The translations under genes were made by a program, and so were the position numbers. A stretch of DNA of 64,000 bases, taken from assembly GCF_011634835.1 (NCBI RefSeq), contig NZ_SIRP01000001.1, positions 3,344,970-3,408,969 of the forward strand, read 5' to 3'. Origin of the DNA: Isoptericola sp. BMS4 (GTDB lineage: Bacteria; Actinomycetota; Actinomycetes; Actinomycetales; Cellulomonadaceae). The number at the start of each line of letters is the position of its first letter. The first letter of the stretch is position 1. Shown piece by piece: positions 27,906 to 32,854 of the stretch. The notes beneath the pieces are model-generated. The model worked only from the letters and a program-made list of their open reading frames with translations. It was not told the origin of the DNA and made no database searches.

Positions 27906-29612
27906 ATGGACGCTGACGTCGTCGTCATCGGAGCGGGGCTGTCCGGGCTGGTCACCGCCACGGAGCTCACCGCCGCCGGCAAGCGAGTCGTGGTGCTGGA
28001 CCAGGAGCCGCACGCCTCCCTCGGCGGCCAGGCGTGGTGGTCGTTCGGCGGGCTGTTCCTCGTCGGGTCTCCCGAGCAGCGCGCGATGGGCGTGCACGAC
28101 TCCGCCGAGCTCGCCTGGGCGGACTGGCTCGGCTCCGCGCAGTTCGAGGCGGGCGCCGAGCGCGGCGAGGGGCCGGACCGGCACGGCTACGCCTGGGCCA
28201 GGCACTTCGTGGAGTTCGCCGCCGGCGACCTGCGCTCCTGGCTGCACGGTAAGGGCGTGCGGTGGTTCCCACTGGTGCAGTGGGCCGAGCGCGGCGGCTA
28301 CCCCGTCGGCGCGGGCGGGATCGAGCACGGCAACTCCGTCCCCCGCTTCCACGTCACCTGGGGCACCGGCCCCGCGATCCTCGCGCCCTTCGTCGCCGCC
28401 GCGCACGCCGCCCAGGCGGCGGGCCGTCTCGACGTGCGGTTCCGCCGCCGCGTCGTCGGGCTGACGACGACGGACGGCGCCGTCACCGGCGTGCGTGCCG
28501 AGGTGCTGGCCGCGCAGGACCTCGCCGGGCGCCCGTTCGGCGGCCGCGGCACGCCGTCGAACCGCGACGTCGCGCGCGTCGAGGAGATCGTCGCGGGCGC
28601 CGTCGTCGTCGCGACCGGCGGCATCGGCGCGAACCACGACCTGGCGCGGGCCCACTGGGACCCCGGCGCGGGAACGCTCCCCGAGCGCATGCTCTCCGGC
28701 GTGCCGGACTCCACCGACGGCCTCATGCTCGGCCACGCCGCCGACGCCGGGGCCGCCCTCGTGCACTCCGGCCGCATGTGGCACTACCCGGAGGGGATCG
28801 CGGCGCACTCCCCCGTCTGGACGAACCACGGGATCCGCATCCTGCCGGGCCCGTCGTCGTTGTGGCTCGACGCCGACGGCCACCGCCTGCCCGCCCCGCT
28901 GTTCCCCGGCTTCGACGCGCTCGGTGCCCTGCGGCACGTCACGAGCCGTGGGGACGACCATTCCTGGTTCGTGCTCAACAAGGCGATCATGGAGTCCGAG
29001 TTCGCGCTGTCCGGCTCGGAGCAGAACCCGGACCTCACCGGCCGGGACGTGAAGCTCCTGGCGCAGCGGGTGCTGCCGGGCGCCGTCGGCCCGGTGGCGC
29101 GGTTCGCCGCCGAGTCCCCCGAGTTCCTGTGGGCGGACTCCCCCGCCGAGCTGGCCGCCGCGATGAACGCGCTGACCGACGCGACGCCCGGCTCACGCGG
29201 GCACGTCGACGCCGGCGAGCTCGCCGCGCTGATCGCCGCCCGCGACGCCCAGGTCTCCTCCGGCCTGGGCAAGGACCCGCAGGTCGTCGCCACCCGGGCC
29301 GCCCGCGACTACCGCGTCGACAAGCTGATCCGGGTCGCGAAGCCGCGGCCCCTGACGACGCCGAAGGACGGGCCGCTGCTGGCCGTGCGGCTGTCCGTGC
29401 TGTCCCGCAAGACCCTCGGCGGGTTGTGGTGCGACCCGTCCGGGCGGGTGCTGCGCCCCGACGGCGACGTCCTGGAGGGTCTGTGGGCCGTCGGCGAGGC
29501 GGCCGGGTTCGGTGGCGGCGGCGTGCACGGCCACCGCGCCCTGGAGGGCACGTTCCTCGGCGGGTGCCTGCACACCGGTCGCGTCACCGGTCGCGCCCTG
29601 GCCGCCGCCTGA
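27906..29612 (+). CDS. FAD-binding dehydrogenase (ketosteroid-dehydrogenase/fumarate-reductase-like)
   Basis: A 568-aa flavoprotein. The N-terminus DADVVVIGAGLSGLVTATEL (2-21) and VVVLDQEPHASLGGQAWWSF are FAD contacts; AVVVATGGIGANHDLARAHW (about 236-255) and the C-terminal GLWAVGEAAGFGGGGVHGHR followed by ALEGTFLGG complete the fold seen in FAD-dependent dehydrogenases of the 3-ketosteroid-1-dehydrogenase group. The substrate is unknown and no steroid genes are nearby. CAGACT lies 6 nt before ATG 27906 (leaderless type). It is monocistronic and its 3' side carries the first of the two 67-bp repeats. Confidence 0.82.
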   Translation: MDADVVVIGAGLSGLVTATELTAAGKRVVVLDQEPHASLGGQAWWSFGGLFLVGSPEQRAMGVHDSAELAWADWLGSAQFEAGAERGEGPDRHGYAWARHFVEFAAGDLRSWLHGKGVRWFPLVQWAERGGYPVGAGGIEHGNSVPRFHVTWGTGPAILAPFVAAAHAAQAAGRLDVRFRRRVVGLTTTDGAVTGVRAEVLAAQDLAGRPFGGRGTPSNRDVARVEEIVAGAVVVATGGIGANHDLARAHWDPGAGTLPERMLSGVPDSTDGLMLGHAADAGAALVHSGRMWHYPEGIAAHSPVWTNHGIRILPGPSSLWLDADGHRLPAPLFPGFDALGALRHVTSRGDDHSWFVLNKAIMESEFALSGSEQNPDLTGRDVKLLAQRVLPGAVGPVARFAAESPEFLWADSPAELAAAMNALTDATPGSRGHVDAGELAALIAARDAQVSSGLGKDPQVVATRAARDYRVDKLIRVAKPRPLTTPKDGPLLAVRLSVLSRKTLGGLWCDPSGRVLRPDGDVLEGLWAVGEAAGFGGGGVHGHRALEGTFLGGCLHTGRVTGRALAAA

Positions 29613-29620
29613 CACGCCAC

Positions 29621-29687
29621 CGAGGTCGAACCCAGGGCTCGAGATCGATGTTCCGGACCTCGATCTCGAACCCTCGCCTCGATCTCG
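29621..29687. repeat. 67-bp nested inverted repeat, left copy
   Basis: Outer arms CGAGGTCGA / TCGATCTCG (one G:T pair), 4-nt internal bulges, inner arms AGGGCTCGAGATCGA / TCGATCTCGAACCCT (one G:T pair) and an 11-nt loop. The copy at 30699 has the same arm, bulge and loop lengths. The two bracket the AbiEi/DUF559 gene. It starts 9 nt after the dehydrogenase stop. Confidence 0.85.
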
Positions 29688-29755
29688 GCGAGCAACCATC
29701 CACAGATTCCGGCCGCGGCCCGACGAACGGAGCCCTCCGCGGGCACCATCGGGCC

Positions 29756-30712
29756 ATGACGACACAGCCTTCCTCGGTCCGCCCGGGACGACGGCGTCCC
29801 GGCGCACCGGTCCCGACCAGGCCCCGGCTGCCCGACGCCGTTCTGTCCGCACCCGAGCGACGGAGCTGGATCCGAGAGCAGGTCCGCAACCGCGGTCTCG
29901 TCCGGCTCCGCCGGGGCGTCTACGTCCGTACGGTCGACCCGGCCCTGTCCCCGGGCCGACGGCGTCGCGAGGAGCTCCTGTCCCACATGAGGGCCGTCGC
30001 CGAGCGTCTCACCACACCGTTCTGGTTCAGCCACACGAGCGCCGCCGTCGCCTGGGGCTGCTGGACGTGGCAGCCGGGACCTCAGGTGCACGTCACGCAG
30101 CTCACCCGTCCTGCCCCGGGCCTGCCCGGTGACGTGCTTCGCCGGCACGTCGTTCCGGTCCCCGACGCCGACCGCGCGGTGGTCGACGGTTTACCGGTCA
30201 CGTCGCTCGGCCGCACCGTGCTGGACTGTGCGCGGACGCTGCCGGAACCGTCCGCCGTGGTGGTCGCCGACTCGGCGCTGGCGCTCGGCCTCACCTCCGC
30301 GGAGCTCGACGACCGTCTCGCGGGCGCGGGCGGGGCGCGAGGGGTCCGCCGTGCCCGGCGTGTCCTCGCCGCTGCCGACGGCGCGTCGGAGTCTCCGCTG
30401 GAGTCCCTGGTCCGCTGGCATCTGGTGGACGCCGGGCTTCCGCGTCCGGTGCACGCGATCGACGTCCCGACCTGGGCCGGCACGTTCTGGGTCGACCTGG
30501 GGTGGCCCCGGCTCCGGGTCGGCATCGAGGCTGACGGCGCCGTCAAGTACGACGAGGACGGGCGCGCCGCCCTGCTCCGTGAGAAGCGCCGGCACGACGC
30601 CCTCGTCGAGTCCGGATGGACGATCCTGCGGGTGACGTTCGACGACCTGCGGGACGTGGCCCGTCTGGTGGCCCGGGTCGACCATGCGATGAGCGCCGCG
30701 AGGTCGAGGTGA
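29756..30712 (+). CDS. AbiEi-like antitoxin-domain / DUF559 (Vsr-fold) protein in a repeat-bounded cassette
   Basis: A 318-aa protein. Residues 20-70 (SAPERRSWIREQVRNRGLVR followed by LRRGVYVR) resemble the winged-helix AbiEi-type antitoxin start. LTRPAPGLPGDVLRRHVVPV and VTSLGRTVLDCARTLP follow in the middle. The C-terminal ESPLESLVRWHLVDAGLPRP, FWVDLGWPRLRVGIEADGAV and LREKRRHDALVESGWTILRV form a DUF559-type fold related to very-short-patch-repair endonucleases, with the E...D...E-x-D pattern retained. No cognate AbiEii toxin is adjacent. CACCAT lies 6 nt before ATG 29756. The last codons, Ala-Arg-Ser-Arg-stop, lie inside the right-hand 67-bp repeat. The biological role is unknown; defence-related or selfish-element function is an inference. 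Confidence 0.75.
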   Translation: MTTQPSSVRPGRRRPGAPVPTRPRLPDAVLSAPERRSWIREQVRNRGLVRLRRGVYVRTVDPALSPGRRRREELLSHMRAVAERLTTPFWFSHTSAAVAWGCWTWQPGPQVHVTQLTRPAPGLPGDVLRRHVVPVPDADRAVVDGLPVTSLGRTVLDCARTLPEPSAVVVADSALALGLTSAELDDRLAGAGGARGVRRARRVLAAADGASESPLESLVRWHLVDAGLPRPVHAIDVPTWAGTFWVDLGWPRLRVGIEADGAVKYDEDGRAALLREKRRHDALVESGWTILRVTFDDLRDVARLVARVDHAMSAARSR

Positions 30713-30765
30713 GGGCTCGAGATCGAGGCCCCGCACATCGACCTCGAGCCCTCGGTTCGACCTCG
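30699..30765. repeat. 67-bp nested inverted repeat, right copy
   Basis: Outer arms CGAGGTCGA / TCGACCTCG (perfect), bulges GGTG / CGGT, inner arms AGGGCTCGAGATCGA / TCGACCTCGAGCCCT (one G:T) and an 11-nt loop. It begins inside the 3' end of the AbiEi/DUF559 gene, supplying its stop codon, and ends 25 nt before the glgE -10. Where the copies differ in the arms, pairing is mostly kept. Confidence 0.85.
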
Positions 30766-30802
30766 GCAGGCGTCAGGAAGGGTGCCTGGCTAGCGTGGAG
30801 CC

Positions 30803-32854
30803 GTGACGTCTCCGCAGCCCACACCGCACGCGCCGATCGGCCGGATCCCGGTCCTCGAGGTCTCCCCGGTCGTCGAGGGCGGGCGCTGGCCGGCGAAGGC
30901 CGCTGCCGGCGAGGTCGTGCCGGTCGAGGCGACGGTGTTCCGCGAGGGGCACGACGCCGTCGGCGCGACCGCGGTGCTCGTCGCGCCGGACGGCACGGAC
31001 CACGCCACGGCCCCGATGGCGGACGTCGCGCCCGGGCTGGACCGGTTCCGCGGGTTCCTGCAGCCGGACGCCGTCGGCGAGTGGGCCTTCCGCGTCGAGG
31101 CGTGGTCGGACCCGTACGGCACGTGGGCGCACGACGCGGTGATCAAGTTCGAGGCGGGCCAGGACGTCGACCTCGTCCTGGCCGAGGGTGAGCGGCTCTT
31201 CGCGCGCGTCATGGCGCCGGAGCTGCAGGCGCGCCGGACCGCGGAGGACGCCCGGCTGCTGGCCGACGCCGCGACCGAGCTCGCGGACCCGAGCCGCCCC
31301 CCGGAGGCCAGGCTGGCGATGGCGACGACGGCCGCGGTGAAGGACGCGCTGCGCCGTGTCCCGCTGCGCGACCTGGTCACCACGAGCGCCACGTACCCGT
31401 TGCGGGTGAGCCGTCCGCTCGCCCTGGCAGGCGCCTGGTACGAGATGTTCCCGCGGTCCGAGGGCGCGGTGCGCCGCAGGGACGGCACCTGGCGGTCGGG
31501 CACGTTCGCGACGGCGGCGCGCCGGCTGCCGGCGATCGCGGGGATGGGGTTCGACGTCGTCTACCTCACGCCGGTGCACCCGATCGGGACGTCGTTCCGC
31601 AAGGGGCGCAACAACACGCTCGACCCGCAGCCGGGCGACCCGGGCAGCCCGTACGCGATCGGCTCGTCCGACGGCGGCCACGACGCCATCCACCCGGACC
31701 TGGGCACGGAGGCCGACTTCCGCGCGTTCGTCGCCGCGGCCCGCGAGAACGGCCTGGAGGTGGCGCTCGACCTGGCGCTGCAGTGCTCGCCGGACCACCC
31801 GTGGGTGACCGCGCACCCGGAGTGGTTCACGATCCGCGCGGACGGCACGATCGCCTACGCCGAGAACCCGCCGAAGAAGTACCAGGACATCTACCCGCTG
31901 AGCTTCGACACGGACCCCGAGGGACTGAGCACCCAGATCCTGCGGATCGTGCGGCTGTGGATCGACCGTGGGGTGACCGCGTTCCGGGTGGACAACCCGC
32001 ACACGAAGCCTCTCGACTTCTGGGAGTGGCTGCTGGCGCGGGTGCACGCGGAGCGGCCCGACGTGATCTTCCTGTCGGAGGCGTTCACCCGGCCGGCGAT
32101 GATGGCCACGCTGGCCCGCATCGGCTTCCACCAGTCGTACACGTACTTCACGTGGCGCAACACGAAGACCGAGCTCGAGGACTACCTGCGGCAGGTCTCG
32201 GGACCCGAGGGGTCGGTGCTGCGCCCGTCGTTCTGGCCGACGACGCACGACATCCTGCCGCCGTACCTGCAGCACGGCGGGGTCGCAGGCTTCGCGGTGC
32301 GTGCGGTGCTCGCCGCGACGGGCAGCCCCACGTGGGGGATCTACTCCGGCTACGAGCTGGTGGAGAACGTGCCCCGGCCGGGCGTCGAGGAGCAGATCGA
32401 CAACGAGAAGTACGAGCTCAGGCCGCGCGACTGGTCGCAGGCGGAGGTCGTCGGCATCTCGACGCTGCTGCGCCGGCTCAACGAGGTCCGCCGCGCGCAC
32501 CCGGCGCTGCGGCAGCTGCGCGACCTCACGGTCCACCCGACGACGAACGACCAGGTGCTGGCGTTCTCCCGGCGGGTGCGCTCCGAGCACCTGGCGGGTA
32601 CCGGACACCCCGGCACGCAGGACGACGTGGTGCTGGTGGTGGTCAACCTCGACCCGTGGGCGACGCAGGAGGCCACGGTGCTCCTCGACCTGGAGGCGCT
32701 GGGCCTGTCCCGCCCCGAGGACGTCGAGGACCAGCCGTTCTTCGTCGTGCACGACGAGCTGTCGGGTGCCGCGTACCCGTGGGGCGCGCACCCGTACGTC
32801 CGCCTGGACCCGCAGGTCCAGGTGGCGCACCTGCTGCGGGTGGGCCTGGCGTGA
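30803..32854 (+). CDS. glgE: Alpha-1,4-glucan:maltose-1-phosphate maltosyltransferase
   Basis: A 683-aa GH13_3 enzyme. The N-terminal domain ([20 protein letters not shown]) and [20 protein letters not shown] are typical of GlgE. Catalytic residues: Asp in [16 protein letters not shown] (about 397), Glu in [14 protein letters not shown] (about 427) and Asp in [14 protein letters not shown]. It transfers maltose from maltose-1-phosphate to alpha-glucan ends. TAGCGT (30791-30796) lies 6 nt before GTG 30803, which supports a leaderless start. Its stop overlaps the treS start (GTGA), so the maltose-1-phosphate pathway is one operon. Confidence 0.96.

Follow-up and report, generated by a model that had tools for sequence, protein, structure and literature searches.

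Here, we describe a family of AbiEi-type genes that is linked to paired flanking repeats widely across actinobacteria, with each gene lineage having its own repeat sequence. This partnership, in which one protein family is combined with two-sided repeats whose identity is tied to that of the protein, is established by computation. We lean towards reading the gene and its two flanking repeats as a single REP/RAYT-like module that is built on an unrelated protein and carries private recognition sites. Among the matches listed in the open-access literature, there was no account of repeats flanking AbiEi/DUF559-type genes, and the partnership is to that extent undescribed; an earlier description is possible outside this scope, in subscription papers or preprints.

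The window, a stretch of 64,000 nucleotides from the 4.43 Mb genome of Isoptericola sp. BMS4, contains the locus from which the analysis started, with the following features (window positions):

27906–29612, + strand: gene for an FAD-binding dehydrogenase, the upstream neighbour (context only)
29620–29689, no strand: left nested palindrome, with half-sites CGAGGTCGA at 29621, CGAGATCGA at 29640, TCGATCTCG at 29660 and TCGATCTCG at 29679
29696–29705, + strand: CCATCCACAG, between the left repeat and the start codon, the window's form of the word (G)TCCACAG
29756–30712, + strand: AbiEi-like gene, 318 aa, with a putative start codon at 29756 that was our choice
30698–30767, no strand: right nested palindrome, with half-sites at 30699, 30718, 30738 and 30757
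30803–32854, + strand: glgE, the downstream neighbour (context only)

The two flanks of the AbiEi-like gene match as a direct repeat of 69 nt (29621–29689 versus 30699–30767, 80% identical) and better as an inverted match (29620–29687 versus 30699–30766, 88%), which bears out the preliminary description of a gene bracketed by matching nested inverted repeats. Each copy spans ~68–70 nt, is palindromic in itself (29620–29651 with 29657–29688, 81%, on the left; 30699–30726 with 30738–30765, 86%, on the right) and contains four 9-bp half-sites, CGAG(G/A)TCGA, spaced 19, 20 and 19 bp apart in both copies. The sizes first given for arms, bulges and loop proved to be an approximation, as the consensus of 14 copies has helices with 12 and 11 pairs. 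The proposal that differences in the arms keep pairing was upheld, with pairing in 97.2% of cells and changes on both sides in 6 of the 23 pairs (levels reached by 0/500 shuffles); arms that repeat a single binding site in inverted orientation would show this as well. The right copy includes the last codons of the gene and its TGA stop (30710–30712), and the neighbours are an FAD-binding dehydrogenase and GlgE, both as originally described.

The combined assignment of the protein to AbiEi and DUF559 held for the AbiEi part but not for DUF559. A PADLOC AbiEi profile matched residues 47–212 of the window protein (5e-11), and AbiEi PADLOC profiles matched all 32 aligned family members (32 sequences from 34 loci, with L039 and L113 left out, which also formed the search profile). 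The two Pfam nuclease matches stayed below their cut-offs, with a weak MTES_1575 REase match at residues 244–296 (20.3 bits versus 38.2) and a DUF559 match of 14.1 bits versus 20.6. We rejected plain DUF559 membership on this sub-threshold score and because the one DUF559 match in the genome belongs to another gene, far from the cassette (G000:C1:3850897-3851097, L001). At E 0.01, the Pfam families matched among the 32 aligned members were MTES_1575 (13/32), AbiEi_4 (9/32), DUF559 (5/32) and AbiEi_1 (3/32). Residues that are invariant in the 32 homologs include D247, E258, D260, G261, K264 and Y265, and we take D247, E258, D260 and K264 to form a PD-(D/E)XK-type nuclease active site, an assignment based on the general features of this fold and on the weak family matches. 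The C-terminal part bears a weak resemblance to PD-(D/E)XK nucleases. An AlphaFold2 model from two sequences was too poor for a fold search (mean pLDDT 43.9), and no PDB entry was significantly related by sequence, the hits being ribosomal S20 at E ≥ 0.07. In a named-genome collection, a single relative of the gene was found, in Isoptericola sp. QY 916 (73% identity).

Two known protein groups are close at hand. MTES_1575 is described as a Vsr-type REase (PMC3710099), and the likeness of our family to DUF559/MTES_1575 nucleases is a weak C-terminal similarity only; the window protein differs in scoring below both cut-offs, and the accessible part of PMC3710099 does not mention cognate flanking repeats. 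The likeness to the AbiE type IV toxin-antitoxin system lies in the AbiEi-type profile of all 32 members and in the binding of AbiEi and Rv2827c to repeats in their own promoters or beside their own genes, as given in the accessible part of PMC7319586. Unlike AbiE, the window gene has no AbiEii (DUF1814) toxin gene next to it, its neighbours being the dehydrogenase gene and glgE and the sole AbiEii match of the genome lying ~180 kb off (G000:C1:3195493-3196188, L389); it further differs in its nuclease-like C-terminal part, its two-sided repeats and the existence of lone copies.

Close repeat pairs in G079, G121, G109 and G147, which bracket AbiEi-type genes, gave the first clue that the arrangement extends beyond the window. 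Relatives of the window protein were present in 18/18 genomes of the genus (62 matches, 30 taken as loci), and the profile found 128 matches in 65 of the 119 genomes sampled from the order, covering 37/56 genera; 90 of these matches were taken as loci, 60 of them hand-chosen. We compared the 350 bp upstream of each gene with its own downstream 350 bp, and 94/124 loci scored above the 99th percentile of mismatched flank pairs (median 43 versus 14). After removal of three duplicates, 91 of 121 distinct loci scored at least 34, and 30/121 showed no clear match. The matched loci comprise 47/51 in the window's own family and extend over 13/16 taxonomic families and 26/34 genera; leaving aside the four loci that had been picked for their repeat pairs (L111–L114), 87/117 were still matched. 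In a phylum-wide sample, a relative was found at E 1e-30 in 14/149 genomes, and 28 loci from this search were examined, four of them being order loci already counted; 13 of the 28 passed the flank test, as did only 10 of the 24 outside the order. In all of these flank-match figures, related loci are counted more than once.

For control genes, none of the 24 other genes of the window had matching flanks (best score 32), and 3/233 did so in twenty arbitrary 20-kb stretches, with genes called by our own codon-composition rule. Among the latter, one (L281 5184-5825, in G231) has very long matching flanks (score 153), perhaps the result of an insertion sequence or duplication. The bracketing thus recurs across the gene family, and the notion that the repeats are genome-wide terminators unlinked to it does not agree with the contrast between 91/121 distinct loci and 3/233 control genes. 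That common hairpin structures (terminators or mRNA stabilisers, for instance) came to lie on both sides by chance is very improbable: six copies fold strongly as RNA and the 14 copies covary, as such hairpins might, but the same control figure, the several members with tandem sites instead of a double hairpin, the gene-specific repeat sequence and the lack of an Rfam match to the repeat up to E 1 argue to the contrary. We rejected terminator-like hairpins on the first two of these grounds.

The repeats vary in layout, and their common denominator is a series of ~10-bp half-sites every 19–20 bp, arranged as palindromes or in tandem. Adjacent same-strand spacings fell between 18 and 22 bp in 217/289 cases, 191 of them being 19 or 20. 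Among the 90 loci for which a word could be assigned, 63 carry it in the two orientations on each side of the gene (palindromes), 9 do so on one side only, and 18 have a single orientation per flank, some of these 18 resting on one or two copies and being weak; the two flanks are mutually inverted in 15/18. Tandem arrays of 4–9 copies a side were found at L037, L038, L043, L047 and L049, and because such arrays take the place of the hairpin in these members, the folded structure emphasized in the preliminary description is not the defining design. The spacing of two helical turns, shared by both layouts, suggests that the half-sites serve as double-stranded binding sites. In 19/90 loci, the first downstream copy begins at or before the stop codon.

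Next to this shared architecture, the repeat sequence itself is private to the gene lineage. Repeat similarity rises with protein identity among the 91 loci (Mantel r 0.51, 0/1000 permutations), and all 18 pairs with more than 70% protein identity pass the repeat-similarity threshold, compared to 1% or less of those below 50%; kin pairs recur in these figures and do not represent independent events. The left and right flanks of a gene have a mean similarity of 0.54, while the flanks of paralogs in the same genome are at 0.15 (26 pairs, genus), the level of unrelated pairs, and the five paralogs read in G001 have five different words. Within the glgE clade, the left and right repeats of six members resemble each other at 0.43–0.79, versus 0.13–0.59 between members, which is suggestive only of concerted evolution of the two sides; L029 had an own left-right value of 0.10, where the strict alignment picked coding sequence.

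These results bear on an improbable alternative, namely that another enzyme (of integron or insertion sequence type) or replication slippage spread the repeats, and that the genes are passengers. Some genomes of the family do have many repeat matches (up to 33, on both strands, among the matches listed) and few genes, and small genes surrounded by attC-like palindromes are known elsewhere. A common outside enzyme, however, would yield neither different repeats beside paralogs of one genome nor a repeat identity that tracks the protein, both of which are seen here, and a search for the HUH/Y1 transposase (PF01797) gave no match in the window's own genome, with matches in 5/14 control genomes. 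On the absence of PF01797 we also rejected an identity of the system with RAYT/Y1 transposases.

We then considered the junction between the dehydrogenase gene and glgE, which was read in 16 of the 18 genus genomes (G015 and G016 were left out). Nine carry a cassette, in the same orientation as in the window in four (G000, G011, G001 and G014) and in the opposite orientation in five (G002, G004, G007, G013 and G017). One has a lone, worn palindrome (G009), one a short, scar-like remnant similar, by eye, to the left end (G012), three have no visible repeat (G003, G006 and G008, by eye), and two are filled by other sequence of 1.25–1.3 kb (G005:C24 and G010:C10; L234 and L227). Because other sequence takes the place that the cassette has in relatives, this junction may receive insertions more generally. 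The comparison with relatives that had been proposed as a search for an empty site thus yielded cassette-less, lone-repeat and inverted states, and with a cassette in 9/16 genomes only, the gene is not fixed here in all relatives. In the protein tree, seven glgE-site cassettes form one clade (100/99) and those of the window and G011 another (100/100), and the tree needs two changes at the site. An independent capture of the junction by two lineages is favoured by this tree; we did not retain it because a single clade for all nine proteins stands (AU p 0.062, not rejected). The junction data do not fix the order of cassette gain, loss and inversion, loss being as likely as gain.

Within the genus, cassettes appear to be old and to have been inherited mostly in place. 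The window protein had no relative on plasmids at E 1e-8 or in phages at 1e-5, and the 32-sequence profile found none in viral contigs, where none of 35 pattern matches was confirmed. A phage or plasmid origin was rejected for want of close relatives in the viral, plasmid and phage collections, distant ones being possible. Along with the persistence of cassettes at their sites, these searches suggest a long residence in chromosomes.

Repeats also occur away from the gene, as anticipated for a REP-like element, both in the window's own genome and in relatives. A DNA search of this genome with the left copy returned the window pair and two further strong places, and a search with the right copy six places, comprising the window pair and four others; across the genus, the right copy gave 14 places in 4/18 genomes. 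At a cut-off of E 0.01, a covariance model of these 14 copies had matches in at least 75 of the 150 family genomes, where E-values are rough and a palindrome matches on both strands, and found four places in 400 kb of arbitrary stretches (18 genomes). One palindrome of the window's repeat family lies in frame within a gene that we presume, from an N-terminal motif, to encode an oxidoreductase; G000, G011 and G004 carry this palindrome, and G012, G002, G006 and G005 lack it, as does, by eye, G009. At the same spot of this gene, G017 has a different palindrome in two copies (GTGTCAGAAAGGCAG...), likewise in frame (L252, G017:C1:3034650-3035300). Two intergenic lone-palindrome sites also vary between genomes of the genus, the upstream neighbours differing in some.

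A second genus of the same family (g8) provided comparable cases. At one site (11 aligned, with G024 partial), the repeat of G064, G109 and G100 lies within an open frame, directly downstream of a likely GTG start codon; the copy in G140 is worn, and nothing was seen in G136, G146, G131, G048, G091 and G149. At the other, insert-length sequence, partly worn, is present in 6/9 genomes and missing in G146 and G048, with G131 partial. Empty and filled sites therefore exist for lone palindromes in related species; the alignments of lone-repeat sites revealed no clear target-site duplication, the ends being too diverged. In this genus, lone palindromes of another family also occur, whose word is GAGGTAGA(G/A)C and which share some of their genomes with the CGAGATCGACC family; they lie at the following loci:

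L319, L324, L326, L328, L330, L331, L337, L338: second palindrome family of g8

At one lone-repeat site, L322 and L327 (G109 and G064) differ by ~180 bp of additional sequence immediately adjoining the repeat.

The simplest reason for the gene-repeat partnership would be that the protein recognises its flanking repeats, as we infer from their co-divergence; this would be in line with the behaviour of AbiEi and Rv2827c as given in the accessible part of PMC7319586. In the module that we favour, an orphan AbiEi-type DNA-binding protein would be fused to a PD-(D/E)XK-like nuclease domain, with private sites on both sides. The AbiEi part may bind neighbouring ~10-bp half-sites from the same side of the double helix, at a distance of two turns, on the model of AbiEi antitoxins binding repeats in their own promoters, and occupancy of the upstream sites would also autoregulate the gene. 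Least certain are the steps assigned to the nuclease domain, which might act at the half-sites and start recombination or copying, and the outcome of this activity, which could keep the flanks alike, invert or remove the cassette and occasionally seed a lone repeat.

A possible, albeit doubtful, alternative is that the repeats are autoregulatory sites, perhaps insulating both sides, that the nuclease targets something else, such as phage DNA, and that lone copies are relics or operators. The binding of own-promoter repeats by AbiEi and Rv2827c (accessible part of PMC7319586) is as this would have it, a regulator would explain just as well why repeat and protein co-diverge, and both the long-lived appearance of the cassettes and the lack of plasmid or phage relatives of the window protein are in its favour. 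Autoregulation alone, however, does not call for downstream sites, which may start at or before the stop codon, for one-orientation arrays that are inverted across the gene, or for lone palindromes that lie in frame within coding sequence and vary between species; operators need neither of the latter properties. A nuclease acting on its own sites would account for the downstream sites, the inversion and the lone copies. Several considerations weigh against the module, namely that lone copies are few beside those of REP (six places in the window's own genome, including the pair) and show no clear target-site duplication, that the flanks of 30/121 loci, and of most loci outside the order, do not clearly match, that cassettes mostly keep their sites and clades, as vertical inheritance predicts, and that the upstream sites by themselves are explicable by ordinary autoregulation. 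We regard it as evenly balanced whether this is a new gene-repeat module, widespread in Actinomycetota, that has a private half-site address, changes protein and flanks together, copies its repeats, and keeps, inverts or replaces its cassette.

REP/RAYT systems consist of a single-copy chromosomal gene that is flanked by palindromes, with lone repeats elsewhere and repeat classes tied to protein lineages. Our system resembles them (REPtron; TnpA-REP) in its single-copy chromosomal gene, in its bracketing palindromes that also occur alone and in its lineage-tied repeats; with lone palindromes present and no Y1 transposase match in the window's own genome, the early comparison to a REP-like layout with a different protein family is partly supported. 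It differs in its AbiEi-type and PD-(D/E)XK-like protein, in having far fewer lone copies, and in half-sites every 19–20 bp that can form tandem arrays in place of a palindrome. In Tn7-type elements, ~20-bp sites form arrays of opposite orientation at either end, and the attC sites of integrons are palindromes flanking a small gene; here, by contrast, a single gene lies between the repeats, and the family searches gave no DDE or integrase similarity. Rickettsia palindromic elements are likewise palindromes inserted in frame in protein genes, and differ in that the repeats here have a linked gene family.

Such genes, carried by 65/119 sampled genomes of the order, have been without a known partner or role. 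If each has private sites that can be read from the genome, their DNA targets would be predictable at once, and matched protein-site pairs, five of which are available in G001, would make it possible to derive the recognition code of AbiEi-type domains. Should the nuclease move the repeats, the system would represent a second, independent and convergent invention of an element of the REP/RAYT kind, which, if true, would combine an antitoxin-type binding domain with a restriction-type nuclease.

Finally, a second signal accompanies the repeats upstream of the gene. The word TCCACAG, which resembles the actinobacterial DnaA box, occurs upstream on the gene strand in 69/121 loci (as GTCCACAG in 48 and TTGTCCACA in 19), compared to 21/121 on the other strand, 4 and 2 downstream, 2.15 in shuffles, and 3/233 upstream of control genes.
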